Below, one piece after another: positions 265 to 18,574 of a stretch of 43,737 nucleotides of DNA. A program made the position numbers and the translations under genes. Position 1 is the first letter of the stretch. Every line of letters begins with the position of its first letter. A model generated the notes under the pieces. The model saw only the letters and a program-made list of their open reading frames with translations. It was not told where the DNA came from and made no database searches. The stretch is taken from assembly GCF_002154695.1 (NCBI RefSeq), contig NZ_MTAV01000262.1:1-43737 (forward strand), read 5' to 3'. The DNA is from Nostoc sp. T09 (lineage in GTDB: Bacteria; Cyanobacteriota; Cyanobacteriia; Cyanobacteriales; Nostocaceae).

Positions 265-1506
265 TTAAGTTGTATATTCGGCGTTAATCTTCACATAGTC
301 ATAGCTTAAATCACAACCCCAAGCTTTACCTATACCATGACCATTACCAACGCTAACAGAAATTAATACTGTATCTTCTTTAAGATACGCACCTTTAGCT
401 GCTGCTTTCAAATATTCACTCGCTGCTGCACGGTCAAATGGTAGAGGTTGACCATTTTCTAATAGTAAAAAATCTCCTAGCTTGATTTGTAAATTTTCTT
501 GCTCAAAGGGTACACCTGCACGTCCAGCAGCGGCGGCGATGCGTCCCCAATTAGGATCGCGACCAAAAATTGCAGATTTAACTAAAGATGAACCTGCAAT
601 AGTTTTAGCTATTTGACGCGCGGAGAGTTCATCATTGGCTCCGGTAACTTGCACTTCAATCAGACAAGTTGCACCTTCGCCATCGCGAGCGATCGCTCTT
701 GCTAAATGTTGACACACTGCTGTTAACATCGCCTCTAATTTTTCCGCTTCTGGCCCCATTTCTATAATTGCTGGGGTGCGGGATTGGCCATTTGCTAAGG
801 CAATTAAGCTGTCATTGGTACTAGTATCACCATCCACAGTAATGGAGTTGAAGCTTCTGTCAGCGGCGCGACTCAACATTTGTTGCCATAGCGCTGGTGA
901 CACAGCAGCATCACAGGTAACAAATGCCAGCATAGTTGCCATGTTGGGATGTATCATCCCAGAACCTTTAGCAATGCCACCAATGCGCACGGGGCGATCG
1001 CCGATAGTTGTCTCTAAAGCAATGGATTTAGTCACCAAGTCTGTAGTAATAATTGCTGCTGCTGCTGCATCTGAGCCTGTTTCTGAAAGTGCTGCTACTA
1101 GTTTGGGAATTCCTGCTTTGAGTTGCTCCATGCGGATTCGCTGTCCAATTACCCCAGTCGAAGCCAATAACACAGATTCACTTGAGATATTCAAAGCTTG
1201 GGCTACTGTCATCGCTGATTCTAGGGCATCGAACCAGCCTTGACTACCTGTTGCAGCGTTTGCTTGCCCAGCATTGCACAGAATGGCCTGAGTATGATGC
1301 TTGGCTTGTAAGTGTTGACGACAATAATCTACGCAGGCGGCTTTAACTTGACTGGTGGTGAATACACCCGCTGCGATCGCTTCTACGTCTGAAAATATCA
1401 AAGCTAAATCGGGCAATCCTGAAGGTTTTAAACCTGCGGTAATTCCTGCGGCCCGATATCCCCTTGGTGCTGTGATACCACCAGTAATTTCCTGCCAGTC
1501 TGCCAT
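265..1506 (-). CDS. argJ: Bifunctional glutamate N-acetyltransferase / amino-acid N-acetyltransferase ArgJ
   Basis: ArgJ moves the acetyl group from N-acetylornithine to glutamate in the cyclic arginine pathway; the bifunctional form can also use acetyl-CoA. The 413-residue length fits the family. The self-cleavage site is visible as MIHPNMATMLAF, with the predicted nucleophile Thr191 that would split the precursor into alpha and beta chains. The C-terminal part has the usual SxFGRDPNWGRI-type block. The ATG start gives the typical N-terminus, with GGITAPRGYRAAGI soon after, and a GGGGG stretch lies upstream. The nearest gene, gatB, runs the same way but is about 960 bp upstream, so argJ is probably transcribed separately. 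From sequence alone I cannot say whether the enzyme is mono- or bifunctional. Confidence 0.95.
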   Translation of the reverse strand: MADWQEITGGITAPRGYRAAGITAGLKPSGLPDLALIFSDVEAIAAGVFTTSQVKAACVDYCRQHLQAKHHTQAILCNAGQANAATGSQGWFDALESAMTVAQALNISSESVLLASTGVIGQRIRMEQLKAGIPKLVAALSETGSDAAAAAIITTDLVTKSIALETTIGDRPVRIGGIAKGSGMIHPNMATMLAFVTCDAAVSPALWQQMLSRAADRSFNSITVDGDTSTNDSLIALANGQSRTPAIIEMGPEAEKLEAMLTAVCQHLARAIARDGEGATCLIEVQVTGANDELSARQIAKTIAGSSLVKSAIFGRDPNWGRIAAAAGRAGVPFEQENLQIKLGDFLLLENGQPLPFDRAAASEYLKAAAKGAYLKEDTVLISVSVGNGHGIGKAWGCDLSYDYVKINAEYTT

Positions 1507-1740: not shown

Positions 1741-1744
1741 AAAA

Positions 1745-1799
1745 AGCGAAAAAGGAGAGCCACTTGGGCAGCTCTCCAGATCATCAGGGTGCATCTATG
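1745..1799 (-). ncRNA. Small-RNA-like unit 1 of a tandem array
   Basis: Read on the minus strand, a TATAAT -10 (1811-1806) and a TTGCCC -35 sixteen bases upstream precede a predicted start near 1799. The transcript would contain the conserved stretch AGATGCACCCTGATGATCTG, then a strong hairpin (GGAGAGC pairing with GCTCTCC) and a run of T. Its length would be about 55 nt. The promoter, conserved body and terminator recur in three more units upstream. The layout resembles NsiR1 of Nostocales, but I could not match the sequence. Confidence 0.6.
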
Positions 1800-1893
1800 T
1801 AGCACATTATAACATCTTTACTCCGAGGGGCAATACCCCTTAATTGGAAATTTATGAAAAAATTATTAAGTTGGTTTTTAAGCTTAAACGAAA

Positions 1894-1946
1894 ATAAAAA
1901 AGAGAGCTACCTAGGCAGCTCTCCAGATCATCAGGGTGCATCTGTT
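1894..1946 (-). ncRNA. Small-RNA-like unit 2 of a tandem array
   Basis: On the minus strand, TTGACC, a 16-base spacer and TAATAT (1958-1953) form a promoter. The conserved body with ATGCACCCTGATGATCTG follows. The hairpin GGAGAGCT/AGCTCTC ends in a T-rich run. The unit lies about 146 bp from units 1 and 3. The loop differs slightly (CTAGG in place of TTGGG on the plus strand), while the stem is kept. Confidence 0.6.
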
Positions 1947-2036
1947 CAGCAGATATTAGCATTTTCTGTATGAAGGTCAATACCAATGATTGAACTTTCT
2001 TTTTATAAAGTTATGATAAAGACTTATCGAAGTATA

Positions 2037-2090
2037 AAAAAAAGAGAGAGCTACTTGGGCAGCTCTCCAGGTCATCAGGGTGCATCTATA
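2037..2090 (-). ncRNA. Small-RNA-like unit 3 of a tandem array
   Basis: On the minus strand the promoter is TTGACC, a 16-base spacer and TATACT (2103-2098). The body is nearly identical to units 1 and 2 with one A/G difference (GACCTG for GATCTG). The terminator stem GGAGAGCT/AGCTCTC is intact and followed by several T. This unit has the best-looking promoter of the four. Confidence 0.6.
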
Positions 2091-2183
2091 TAACATAAGT
2101 ATAACACTTTTGTAACGATGGTCAACACCCCCTAATGGAATTTTTTAGATAAATTTTTCAAAAATTTTTCACCTTGATTTGGC

Positions 2184-2238
2184 AAAGAAAAAGAAAAGCC
2201 ACTTAGAAAGCTTCTCCAGACCATCGTAGTGCATTCAT
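2184..2238 (-). ncRNA. Small-RNA-like unit 4, degenerate
   Basis: This is the unit nearest gatB. The -10 TATACT (2251-2246) is kept, but the -35 region has drifted and no TTGACC is present. The body has several changes (GCACTACGATGGTCTGG), and the hairpin is weaker (GAGAAGC/GCTTTTC) though still followed by T. It looks like a diverging copy of the array. Confidence 0.45.
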
Positions 2239-2467
2239 TTAACAGAGTATAGTACTTTTGGATTGAGGGGTATAACCCATCTTCATAATTTCTTTTTGTA
2301 ACAATTTTGTAAAGTAAGTACTAGAAATATACTCAAGCGGCGTGACAGGAATCAGAATTCCCTTCTGCCTCCTGCCCTCTGCCTTTCTTGCTAAATCTCA
2401 AAACTGCCCATAAAGCCTGTTGTACTCCTGAATTCTGAATGCTCCTGTAATTGTACTTAGTCAAAAG

Positions 2468-3943
2468 TTAGGAATTCAGTTTCTTCTCCACCAATTCATT
2501 AGTCAGCTTAGGATCGGCACGTTTGTCAGTCTTTTTCAGAACTTGCCCGACAAAGAAGCCTTTGAGATTAGTGTTACCATTACGATACTTTTCTAGTTCT
2601 TTGGGATTGGCGGCAATCACTTCATCTACGATTGGTTCCAACACGCTAGGATCGCTGATCAGTTCTTGTCCTGCAAAAGCTTTGTCAGGAGACACACCTG
2701 CAAGCAAGTCTGGTAACTTTTGTTTGGCTTGGGCGTTACTAATTTTGCCTTGTTCAATCCGAACGATCGCATCAGCTAAATTTTGCGGAGTCAAACCAAT
2801 TTCGCTAATGCTGAGTTTTTGCTTATTGAGATAGGCTGCAATATCTTGAGTAATCCAGTTAGCGGCTGCTTTAGGATTTGCACCCGCAGCGATCGCAGCT
2901 TCAAAATAGTCAGCGACTGGCTGATCTTCTGTCAAAACTCGCGTATCGTAAGCAGAAAGCCCCAACTCAGCTTCATAACGATGGCGTTTTTGTGCGGGTA
3001 GTTCTGGAAGTTCGCTGCGCCAAGTCTCTAATTGTTCTGGGGAAACTTCAATTGGTGCCAAATCTGGTTCCGGGAAATAGCGGTAATCGCTAGAACCTTC
3101 TTTCGTCCGCATACTAATTGTGCGTTGCGAACCTTCTTCCCACAAACGCGTTTCTTGAATAATGCGATCGCCTGCTTCGACAGCTGCAATTTGCCGTTCG
3201 ATCTCGTATTCAATCGCCCTTTGAATGGCGTTGAATGAGTTCATGTTTTTAATTTCTACTTTCGTGCCAAACTCTTTTTGTCCTACCGGACGAACAGAGA
3301 TGTTAACATCGCAACGTAAAGATCCTTCTTGCATATTGCCATCGCTGACGCCAAGATACCGTACAATCCGACGCAGTTCTTGAGCATATTCAGCCGCTTC
3401 TTGTCCAGTACGCAGATCTGGTTCAGAAACAATTTCTACTAGTGGCACACCTGCTCGATTGTAATCTACCAGAGAATAAGTAGAGCCAGAAAGACGTTCG
3501 CTACCTGCATGTACTAATTTGCCTGCATCTTCTTCCATATGCAGACGCGTAATGCCAATGCGTTTGCGTGTAGGATTACCGTCAGCATCTACTAACTCAA
3601 TTTCTAACCAACCATGTTCGGCAATTGGCAGGTCATATTGCGAAATTTGGTAATTTTTTGGCAAATCAGGATAAAAATACTGTTTACGGTCAAATTTGCT
3701 ATATTTAGCGATTTGACAATTTAGTGCCAAACCTGCTTTGACGGCATATTCTAGTACTTTTTGGTTGAGAACTGGTAAGACTCCAGGTAAACCCATACAA
3801 ACTGGGTCGATGTTAGTATTGGGGTCACCACCGAATGCCGTAGAGCTGGTAGAAAAAATCTTGGTATTGGTACTCAGCTGACAATGGGTTTCTAGACCAA
3901 TAATCGCTTCGTACTCAGTTTTTACGGTTGTAGCAGAAGTCAT
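2468..3943 (-). CDS. gatB: Aspartyl/glutamyl-tRNA amidotransferase subunit B
   Basis: GatB is the tRNA-binding and kinase-like subunit of GatCAB, which converts misacylated Glu-tRNA(Gln) and Asp-tRNA(Asn) to the amide forms. The 491-residue protein shows the GatB core: EAIIGLETHCQL at the N-terminus, FDRKQYFYPDLPKNYQISQYD, then NRAGVPLVEIVSEPD and LRCDVNISVRP. The alpha-helical YqeY-like tail follows, ending with GNTNLKGFFVGQVLKKT. The length is normal and the frame intact. gatC lies about 1.1 kb upstream on the same strand, separated by a GST gene, so the two subunits are near each other but not directly joined. gatA is not in the window. The T-rich repeat array downstream may insulate it from argJ. 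Confidence 0.96.
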   Translation of the reverse strand: MTSATTVKTEYEAIIGLETHCQLSTNTKIFSTSSTAFGGDPNTNIDPVCMGLPGVLPVLNQKVLEYAVKAGLALNCQIAKYSKFDRKQYFYPDLPKNYQISQYDLPIAEHGWLEIELVDADGNPTRKRIGITRLHMEEDAGKLVHAGSERLSGSTYSLVDYNRAGVPLVEIVSEPDLRTGQEAAEYAQELRRIVRYLGVSDGNMQEGSLRCDVNISVRPVGQKEFGTKVEIKNMNSFNAIQRAIEYEIERQIAAVEAGDRIIQETRLWEEGSQRTISMRTKEGSSDYRYFPEPDLAPIEVSPEQLETWRSELPELPAQKRHRYEAELGLSAYDTRVLTEDQPVADYFEAAIAAGANPKAAANWITQDIAAYLNKQKLSISEIGLTPQNLADAIVRIEQGKISNAQAKQKLPDLLAGVSPDKAFAGQELISDPSVLEPIVDEVIAANPKELEKYRNGNTNLKGFFVGQVLKKTDKRADPKLTNELVEKKLNS

Positions 3944-16729: not shown

Positions 16730-18574
16730 GTTCCAATTAATTAAAATCCCTATCAGGGATTGAAACATGCCTTGGGATTTTCGCAAGCGCTCTTTAAAAC
16801 TGTTCCAATTAATTAAAATCCCTATCAGGGATTGAAACATCTCTACGGATAACATTAACGGATACCTCTACGTTGTTCCAATTAATTAAAATCCCTATCA
16901 GGGATTGAAACAAAGATTTAAACTCTCACGCTTGCCAGGTTGCAGTTCCAATTAATTAAAATCCCTATCAGGGATTGAAACAGTTCCAGCAGTACGAACA
17001 GAACCAAAAGAAAGTTCCAATTAATTAAAATCCCTATCAGGGATTGAAACTTGACCATGCCTCAGCACCTTCTAGAGTGCAATTCGTTCCAATTAATTAA
17101 AATCCCTATCAGGGATTGAAACCTATCTCGTGTGGGCATTCTACCGAGAGTGTGAAGCTATCAGGTTCCAATTAATTAAAATCCCTATCAGGGATTGAAA
17201 CAGCCAGGAGAATCATCGATCGCAAGCCAGAAGGCGGATATGGTTCCAATTAATTAAAATCCCTATCAGGGATTGAAACATTCAATTGGCAATTAAAAAG
17301 ATTCAAACAGCAGGGTTCCAATTAATTAAAATCCCTATCAGGGATTGAAACGGCAAAGATTCTCAAGCTGCTTTTGCTATTCAGGGTTCCAATTAATTAA
17401 AATCCCTATCAGGGATTGAAACTGTTTTAGTCGATTATTCTGTTGTAGAAGCTGGTTCCAATTAATTAAAATCCCTATCAGGGATTGAAACTAAAAATCC
17501 CTTAGCATCATCCCGACTTACGATGTTCCAATTAATTAAAATCCCTATCAGGGATTGAAACACGCTGTTGTTTAATCTGGGGGTTGAATGACGCAGATGG
17601 TTCCAATTAATTAAAATCCCTATCAGGGATTGAAACTCGCTGGTTATGGGGAAACAATTGGAAGCGGATAGAGTTCCAATTAATTAAAATCCCTATCAGG
17701 GATTGAAACCAAGCATATAAAGGCTTTTGCCACTTCCGAATTTACGTTCCAATTAATTAAAATCCCTATCAGGGATTGAAACATTAGGAGTAGTTAGTGC
17801 GGGAATTGTCAGTACAAGCAGTTCCAATTAATTAAAATCCCTATCAGGGATTGAAACTTGTCATCCCTGGAATTCTGGACACAATCGGACAGCGTTCCAA
17901 TTAATTAAAATCCCTATCAGGGATTGAAACCACCCTCGCACTCAATGTATTTAGCCCAGAAGCGTTCCAATTAATTAAAATCCCTATCAGGGATTGAAAC
18001 GATGCTGTAAGCGGTGGCGCGTGTTGCGCGCGCGTTCCAATTAATTAAAATCCCTATCAGGGATTGAAACTTAGCTTTGCCCTTTTCTGTTTTTGCCCCT
18101 GTTGAGTTCCAATTAATTAAAATCCCTATCAGGGATTGAAACAAGTATCAGCTTAGGGTGTAAGTAAAAATCCCCAGTTCCAATTAATTAAAATCCCTAT
18201 CAGGGATTGAAACAGTGCGGCTGGAAAGAAAAGCAAGAAATCCAGACGGTTCCAATTAATTAAAATCCCTATCAGGGATTGAAACAAGTTTAGATTTTTC
18301 TAAGCTGGCCCGTTTTTTCTGTTCCAATTAATTAAAATCCCTATCAGGGATTGAAACTGGCTGTTATTTAGCGACTGCTTCATGTCTTTAAGGGTTCCAA
18401 TTAATTAAAATCCCTATCAGGGATTGAAACGGCGATTGGTCGAGTTACTGGGGTAATTACAAATGTTCCAATTAATTAAAATCCCTATCAGGGATTGAAA
18501 CGAATCCAATCAAAGTTGCCGCCAATTAATCCAACGAGTTCCAATTAATTAAAATCCCTATCAGGGATTGCAAC
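16730..18574 (+). CRISPR. CRISPR array, 26 repeats and 25 spacers
   Basis: The 37-bp direct repeat begins GTTCCAATTAATTAAAATCC and ends CCCTATCAGGGATTGAAAC. An internal inverted repeat AATCCCT/AGGGATT gives a 7-bp stem. The last eight bases, ATTGAAAC, are typical of 5' handles in type I-D and type III cyanobacterial arrays, but the type cannot be fixed from the repeat. I count 26 repeats from 16730 to 18574, 25 of them identical by eye and the last with one change (ATTGCAAC). The 25 spacers are 32-42 nt long. No cas gene lies in the window, so the array depends on cas genes elsewhere. Several spacers have an open frame. Confidence 0.97.

Follow-up and report, generated by a model that had tools for sequence, protein, structure and literature searches.

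The window analysed here, a stretch of 43,737 nucleotides from Nostoc sp. T09, contains four tandem units in the interval between gatB and argJ, each with the layout of a promoter, a short RNA gene and a terminator; all four are on the minus strand, and three are good while one is decayed (Table 1). A tandem array had been described in an earlier note made from the letters of the sequence, and the alignment bears it out: units 1–3 are 89-nt copies (at 1749, 1896 and 2040; spacing 147 and 144 bp), followed by a fourth unit at about 2188–2239. Units 2 and 3 are 79% and 69% identical to unit 1, respectively. The 5′ ends predicted in that note (1799, 1946, 2090 and 2238) lie close to the starts given by covariance model R1 (1799, 1946, 2090 and 2239), and the unit nearest gatB, which had been called degenerate, scores only 24.7 bits against 71.8–75.3 bits for units 1–3. 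The proposed intrinsic terminators were also recovered, as the region holds five terminator-like sites compared with a shuffle mean of 0.8 (sd 1.0), four of which belong to the array. Promoter-like sites number five against a shuffle mean of 2.6 (sd 1.7), which is not significant alone; three are those of the array, and unit 4 contributes none. Each of units 1–3 combines a TG-extended −10 box, the element AGATGCACCCTGATGATCTG (with one change in unit 3) and a 10-pair terminator stem. Regarding the proposed TTGNCC/TAtAaT promoter, the −10 boxes of units 1–3 stand, whereas TTGNCC forms just one half of a palindrome covering the −35 region; other genomes keep the palindrome rather than the hexamer. 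Unit 4 (2188–2278) retains a TATACT −10 box and an exact palindrome, with a decayed RNA body. Elsewhere in the window, a CRISPR array lies at 16730–18574, with 26 matches to the CRISPR-DR5 repeat (RF01318).

Table 1. Features of the gatB–argJ interval and its flanking genes in the window (R1, covariance model; operators and RNA genes are predictions).
Feature	Position	Strand	Basis
argJ, downstream neighbour	265..1506	-	Pfam ArgJ
Unit 1 RNA	1749..1799	-	R1 75.3 bits; terminator scan; alignment
Unit 1 terminator stem	1754-1777	-	
Unit 1 seed AGATGCACCCTGATG	starts 1796	-	
Unit 1 −10 box TATAAT, TG-extended	1806..1811	-	promoter scan
Unit 1 predicted HetR-type operator GGGTATTGCCC, exact GGGN5CCC over −35 region	1828..1838	-	motif comparison
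Unit 2 RNA; terminator stem 1901-1924	1896..1946	-	R1 71.8 bits; terminator scan
Unit 2 −10 box TAATAT	1953..1958	-	promoter scan
Unit 2 operator position, degenerate TGGTATTGACC, 4/6 core bases	1975..1985	-	motif comparison
Unit 3 RNA; terminator stem 2045-2068	2040..2090	-	R1 71.9 bits; terminator scan
Unit 3 −10 box TATACT	2098..2103	-	promoter scan
Unit 3 operator position GGGTGTTGACC, 5/6 core bases	2120..2130	-	motif comparison
Unit 4 degenerate RNA body, seed altered; terminator-like stem 2192-2217	~2188..2239	-	R1 24.7 bits; alignment
Unit 4 predicted operator GGGTTATACCC, exact GGGN5CCC despite decayed body	2268..2278	-	motif comparison
gatB, conserved upstream neighbour	2468..3943	-	Pfam GatB_N and GatB_Yqey; synteny

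The array is a member of a widely distributed family. Among 80 named loci collected via GatB, 22 were scanned for the seed and 35 with R1. One to four seed genes follow gatB in the heterocystous Fischerella, Nostoc, Dolichospermum, Anabaena and Spirirestis, and likewise in Symplocastrum, Symploca, Phormidium, Leptolyngbya, Microcoleus, Lyngbya and Hydrococcus. R1, built on 28 copies, three of them from the window, was used to search 386 genomes of the phylum. Matches were obtained in 91/386 genomes at E≤1e-3 and in 86/386 at 39 bits or more. Five low scorers were removed before counting: G004, G122 and G281, in which the match lies mainly in the terminator, and G039 and G064, whose best hits (31 and 29 bits) fall inside NsiR1-type arrays. 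The body of the unit, whose conservation the earlier note had proposed to check, is kept in 86 genomes, and in 63 of these a copy lies on the same strand less than 5 kb downstream of gatB (median 139 bp; GatB positions were found in 375/386 genomes). For this synteny count, 16 rows at about 30–33 bits were left out and seven gatB-side rows at 30–38 bits were kept; without the latter the count is 62/86 with a median of about 160 bp, and only G127, with a 31.5-bit copy, depends on them. In the remaining 23 genomes, the copies are at other places, on a different contig or, for G360, on the opposite strand. Copy numbers per genome are minimum figures. In two genomes of one genus, a second gatB-type copy follows hetR on the same strand, at a distance of about 3.6 kb (L190, G284:C1:1709163-1709216) and 4.9 kb (L155, G199:C10:137143-137193). 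A literature search of main texts for a gatB-linked cyanobacterial sRNA or for the letters of the seed returned nothing related among the matches listed; it is possible that published lists (Table S3 of PMC4734099; the Nodularia transcription-start file) hold the array RNA unnamed.

The palindrome GGGGTNNNNCCCCTCA spans the −35 region of the promoters and resembles the HetR operator described in the literature, GGGN5CCC. For hetP, the reported HetR site is GAGGGGTCTAACCCCTC, with a GGGN5CCC core that is needed for binding (PMC4192349, PMC4649674), and paired changes in the GGG/CCC bases abolished HetR binding in a reported electrophoretic mobility shift assay (PMC4649674). Aligned by their distance from the seed, 77 promoters give the consensus aataagGGGt.t.aCcCCtCa..cc.aaaaTG.tATA.TgTG.TAaGTAGATGCACCCTGATG, in which the palindrome centre lies near −34, counted from the −10 box; the offset of the unit 1 palindrome is similar in other genomes. 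In the window, GGGTNNNNCCC has six hits against 1.96 expected, a number reached by 2 of 100 shuffles, and three of the six (at two sites) fall in the array. Among hetR-bearing genomes, the core before the best copy is exact in 57/77 and keeps five of six bases in the other 20. All of these 20 belong to the taxonomic family of the window, where they make up 20 of the 42 holders of the RNA; outside that family the core is exact in 35/35 hetR-bearing genomes. By comparison, an exact core was present in 87/17200 shuffled windows. CGRE1, an element of Yfr2 promoters for which no motif letters were found, had been considered for the palindrome and was dropped once the HetR match emerged.

The distribution of the RNA follows that of hetR. 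Taking the HetR family PF03574 as the measure of presence, hetR was found in 80/386 genomes, and the R1 family occurs in 77/80 genomes with hetR versus 9/306 without it. The corresponding Fisher value of 1e-66 ignores phylogeny and is not a true probability, and it overstates independence because the hetR-bearing genomes are phylogenetically clustered. Among the named genomes, hetR is present in 15/23; the sRNA lies beside gatB in 14 of these 15, Planktothricoides being the exception, and in one of the eight genomes without hetR, namely Hydrococcus, which lacks the palindrome. The hetR-bearing exceptions are G039, G320 and G064. In G039 and G320, an exact palindrome precedes the seed genes, whose terminator is a different one and scores low with R1; among the copies looked at in G064, all are DIF1-type or near-DIF1. 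The seed genes with exact GGGN5CCC and terminators unlike the gatB type are those of L245 (G320:C24, about 50926-51275), two copies of which have the palindrome GGGTCTAACCC, and L247 (G039:C120:72053-72107). The palindrome class is thus wider than R1 shows. The nine holders that lack hetR comprise seven genomes of one genus, G005 and G229. In the seven genomes of one genus (L192–L198), the RNA copy lies away from gatB and is not preceded by the palindrome.

From these data, the array is best read as part of a HetR-controlled family of trans-acting sRNAs, a reading to which we give a probability of roughly two in three. The main competitor is a housekeeping role for the sRNA, with some other factor in place of HetR binding its promoter and the co-occurrence with hetR merely marking the filamentous lineage. 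The phylogenetic clustering and the imperfect cores in 20/77 genomes speak for it, as does G229, which has the palindrome and, at a threshold as loose as E≤10, no detected hetR; G229 requires either an assembly gap or another factor. On the other hand, the similarity of the palindrome to the hetP operator extends past the core into the CTC flank, and eight of the nine RNA holders without hetR (seven of the eight being from one genus) lack the palindrome, keeping two or three of the six core bases, with an exact core in G229 only. Hydrococcus, which has no hetR, points in the same direction. We consider the housekeeping reading unlikely.

Regarding the relationship to NsiR1, the earlier note held that the array may be a different multi-copy sRNA with the layout of NsiR1, and this view is upheld on the sequence. 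The layout of tandem short RNA genes, each with its own promoter and terminator, is present, and the 5′ seed AGATGCACCCTGAT is common to the gatB-side units and NsiR1; in the same genome, the seed GATGCACCCTGAT is identical in units 1–3 and several NsiR1 copies. With the Rfam model of NsiR1 (RF02399), unit 3 scores 22.2 bits and unit 2 15.5 bits, and for units 1 and 4 no match to this model is listed at E≤5. Were the array a divergent second form of the NsiR1 array, sharing its function, specific to heterocysts and driven by HetZ and DIF1, the common seed and layout and these weak matches would be accounted for. However, both scores are below the gathering cut-off of 39, the array sits between gatB and argJ and not upstream of hetF, and the terminator differs. 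The DIF1 motif TCCGGA, the absence of which had been pointed out before, has no occurrence in the whole window (about five expected). Moreover, gatB-type and NsiR1 classes have distinct promoters in other genomes, and both are present in most of the same genomes. A second NsiR1 array is slightly less probable than a housekeeping role; by its sequence, the array is not canonical NsiR1 but kin to it. The seed in common with NsiR1, the orthologues beyond Nostocales and the HetR-type palindrome in the promoter had been missed in the earlier note.

NsiR1 itself is present in the genome of the window. RF02399 finds three copies on contig C68 and five on C256. High-scoring copies (up to 72.6 bits) sit where C68 ends and where C256 begins, and several of them are preceded by a TATCCGGAT promoter; this array (L014, L013) is apparently split by an assembly break. 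An 830-aa CHAT-domain protein, which we take to be HetF, is encoded on C68 next to the NsiR1 copies. Across the phylum, RF02399 matches 81/386 genomes, 80 of them over the cut-off, and these matches occur in 78/80 genomes with hetR versus 3/306 without it. Of 30 loci inspected in 24 genomes selected from outside the taxonomic family of the window, three (L231–L233) are the gatB-type RNA. Among the other 27, TCCGGA is exact in 20, the same position holds a form differing by a single base in seven, and the terminators are diverse. As the seed is common to loci with palindrome and DIF1 promoters, there is one seed with two promoter classes, both following hetR. The genome of the window also contains four orphan genes with the seed GGTAGATGCACC and four other terminators unlike those of the array, L035 (C66:78573-78623), L036 (C26:21200-21256), L037 (C188:67662-67730) and L038 (C20:45155-45215); upstream of the C66 copy lies TTTCCGGAT.

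The pattern of conservation is that of an RNA gene. In the terminator, 96.6% of 799 cells are paired, and six of nine pairs have two-sided changes, although the alignment was fitted to the R1 model, a bias in favour of pairing. Cells with two-sided changes number 37, compared with 15.5 in shuffles, none of 500 shuffles being as high on these measures, and the count of pair types is equalled in 2/500. These compensatory changes, the gatB synteny and a seed nearly fixed over many genera make an inert tandem duplication or a functionless spreading repeat highly improbable, although unit 4 is decayed and one genome, G360 (L171, L207), has at least 10 R1 matches on at least seven contigs, as if the unit had spread there. 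A leaderless micro-ORF beginning ATG CAC CCT GAT (MHPD...) was rejected as the least tenable reading: ATGCAC occurs within the seed in 84 of 90 distinct copies, but CAC, CCT and GAT vary no more at their third positions than the seed does elsewhere, all 12 bases are kept in 79 copies while the five other ATGCAC forms carry non-synonymous or shifting changes, no synonymous change is found among the 90 distinct sequences, and NsiR1-class members diverge or stop shortly past the seed.

In the HetR-controlled reading, each good unit would be a free-standing gene for a trans-acting sRNA of about 50 nt. A HetR dimer is proposed to bind the GGGN5CCC palindrome near −34, which replaces a normal −35 box and adjoins the extended −10 element TGNTATANT. 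RNA polymerase would then produce a short transcript whose 5′ seed, 5′-AGAUGCACCCUGAUG, is largely unpaired and which ends in the intrinsic terminator hairpin; the seed would pair with the leaders of target mRNAs. Tandem copies may raise the dose. NsiR1 would represent a sister branch within this seed family, one with the DIF1 promoter. As to the sign of regulation, activation is somewhat favoured over repression, given that the promoters lack a conserved good −35 box and that hetP and hetZ are reportedly upregulated by HetR (PMC7377430). Some genes are reported to be repressed by HetR (PMC4192349), and a site centred near −34 would equally suit a repressor. The imperfect cores in 20/77 best copies of hetR-bearing genomes and in units 2 and 3 of the window argue against the HetR reading as a whole.

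NsiR1 is reported to repress hetF and the hetP-like alr3234 (PMC9045159). As the array RNA has the same seed, it probably acts on mRNAs overlapping those of NsiR1. In the genome of the window, the seed complement with at most one mismatch occurs at 35 sites, compared with six for a reversed control; 13 of the 35 are the seed genes themselves. Only one of the 10 perfect sites lies outside the seed genes, TCAGGGTGCATC in the leader of the gene for HU (hanA), 35 nt before the ATG (L005 1506-1520), where the complementarity extends over 15 nt, or 17 nt with unit 2. Conservation of the site was searched in 71 genomes and counted in 70 (G056 has no upstream sequence), of which 48 have hetR and 22 do not. 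No well-conserved target was found, and the HU leader, a candidate, has a perfect 15-nt match in 2/48 hetR-bearing genomes. With at most four mismatches, the match is found in 9/48 genomes with hetR versus 0/22 without it, compared with about 2% for shuffled sites; all nine belong to the taxonomic family of the window, and eight have the match at the same place. Related genomes have diverged but similar letters at this position. The predicted duplex energies, whose absolute values seem too large, were compared with 300 shuffles: those of units 2 and 3 lie below the shuffle minimum (−45.8 and −43.5 versus −41.3 and −38.7), that of unit 1 does not (−42.6 versus −45.7), and that of unit 4 equals the mean. 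HU is retained only as a weakly conserved candidate target because the site is inside a predicted hairpin of the leader. Khudyakov and Wolk (1996) reportedly dealt, to judge from the title, with HU (hanA) and heterocyst differentiation. HU is described as essential for heterocyst differentiation in PCC 7120, and hanA is reported as not found in Nodularia CCY9414 (PMC3610870); G199, from the same group (g14) as Nodularia CCY9414, has HU at 98%.

The role of hetR in filamentous cyanobacteria without heterocysts has been called a mystery (PMC11298460). An NsiR1-like RNA is reported in Limnospira, which makes no heterocysts (PMC8400943), and, among the genomes compared, many holders of the RNA gene with HetR make none either. 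The array family probably predates heterocysts and is kin to NsiR1. An sRNA whose occurrence tracks hetR over the phylum and which has a predicted HetR operator would offer a testable answer to this mystery, would add a conserved non-coding RNA to the HetR regulon and would place the developmental sRNA NsiR1 in a larger, probably older seed family. More tentatively, and at somewhat less than even odds, the ancestral pre-heterocyst job of HetR may have included direct control of a seed-sharing sRNA family, with the gatB array as the direct HetR branch and NsiR1 as the DIF1/HetZ branch of one two-armed post-transcriptional regulon in almost all hetR-bearing filamentous cyanobacteria, from which the heterocyst-specific NsiR1 system would have been recruited.

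Several known systems can be compared with the array. Yfr1 and Yfr2 are likewise short, widely conserved cyanobacterial sRNAs, and Yfr1 is reported to have an invariant unpaired motif (PMC4734099); this motif, CACUCCUCACACC, differs from that of the window units, and Rfam lists no Yfr family in the array region, either at the gathering cut-off or at E≤5. Matches to other Rfam families (MIR159, sbrA and SSRC38) were far below their cut-offs and were discarded. The HetR operators of hetP and hetZ have the GGGN5CCC core as well, with the CTC flank seen in the hetP site (PMC4192349), whereas the putative site here overlaps the −35 region of sRNA promoters. The DIF1 promoters of patS, patX, hetR and nsiR1 likewise belong to the HetR circuit and have their regulatory element at about −35, but the motif differs, and they are reportedly HetZ-dependent rather than directly HetR-dependent (PMC7377430). 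The closest likeness is to NsiR1, with tandem RNA genes of about 50–60 nt, their own promoters and terminators, an identical seed and a link to the HetR circuit. In contrast to NsiR1, the array of the window is linked to gatB, has another terminator, remains below the Rfam cut-off and carries a HetR-type palindrome in place of the TCCGGA of DIF1.
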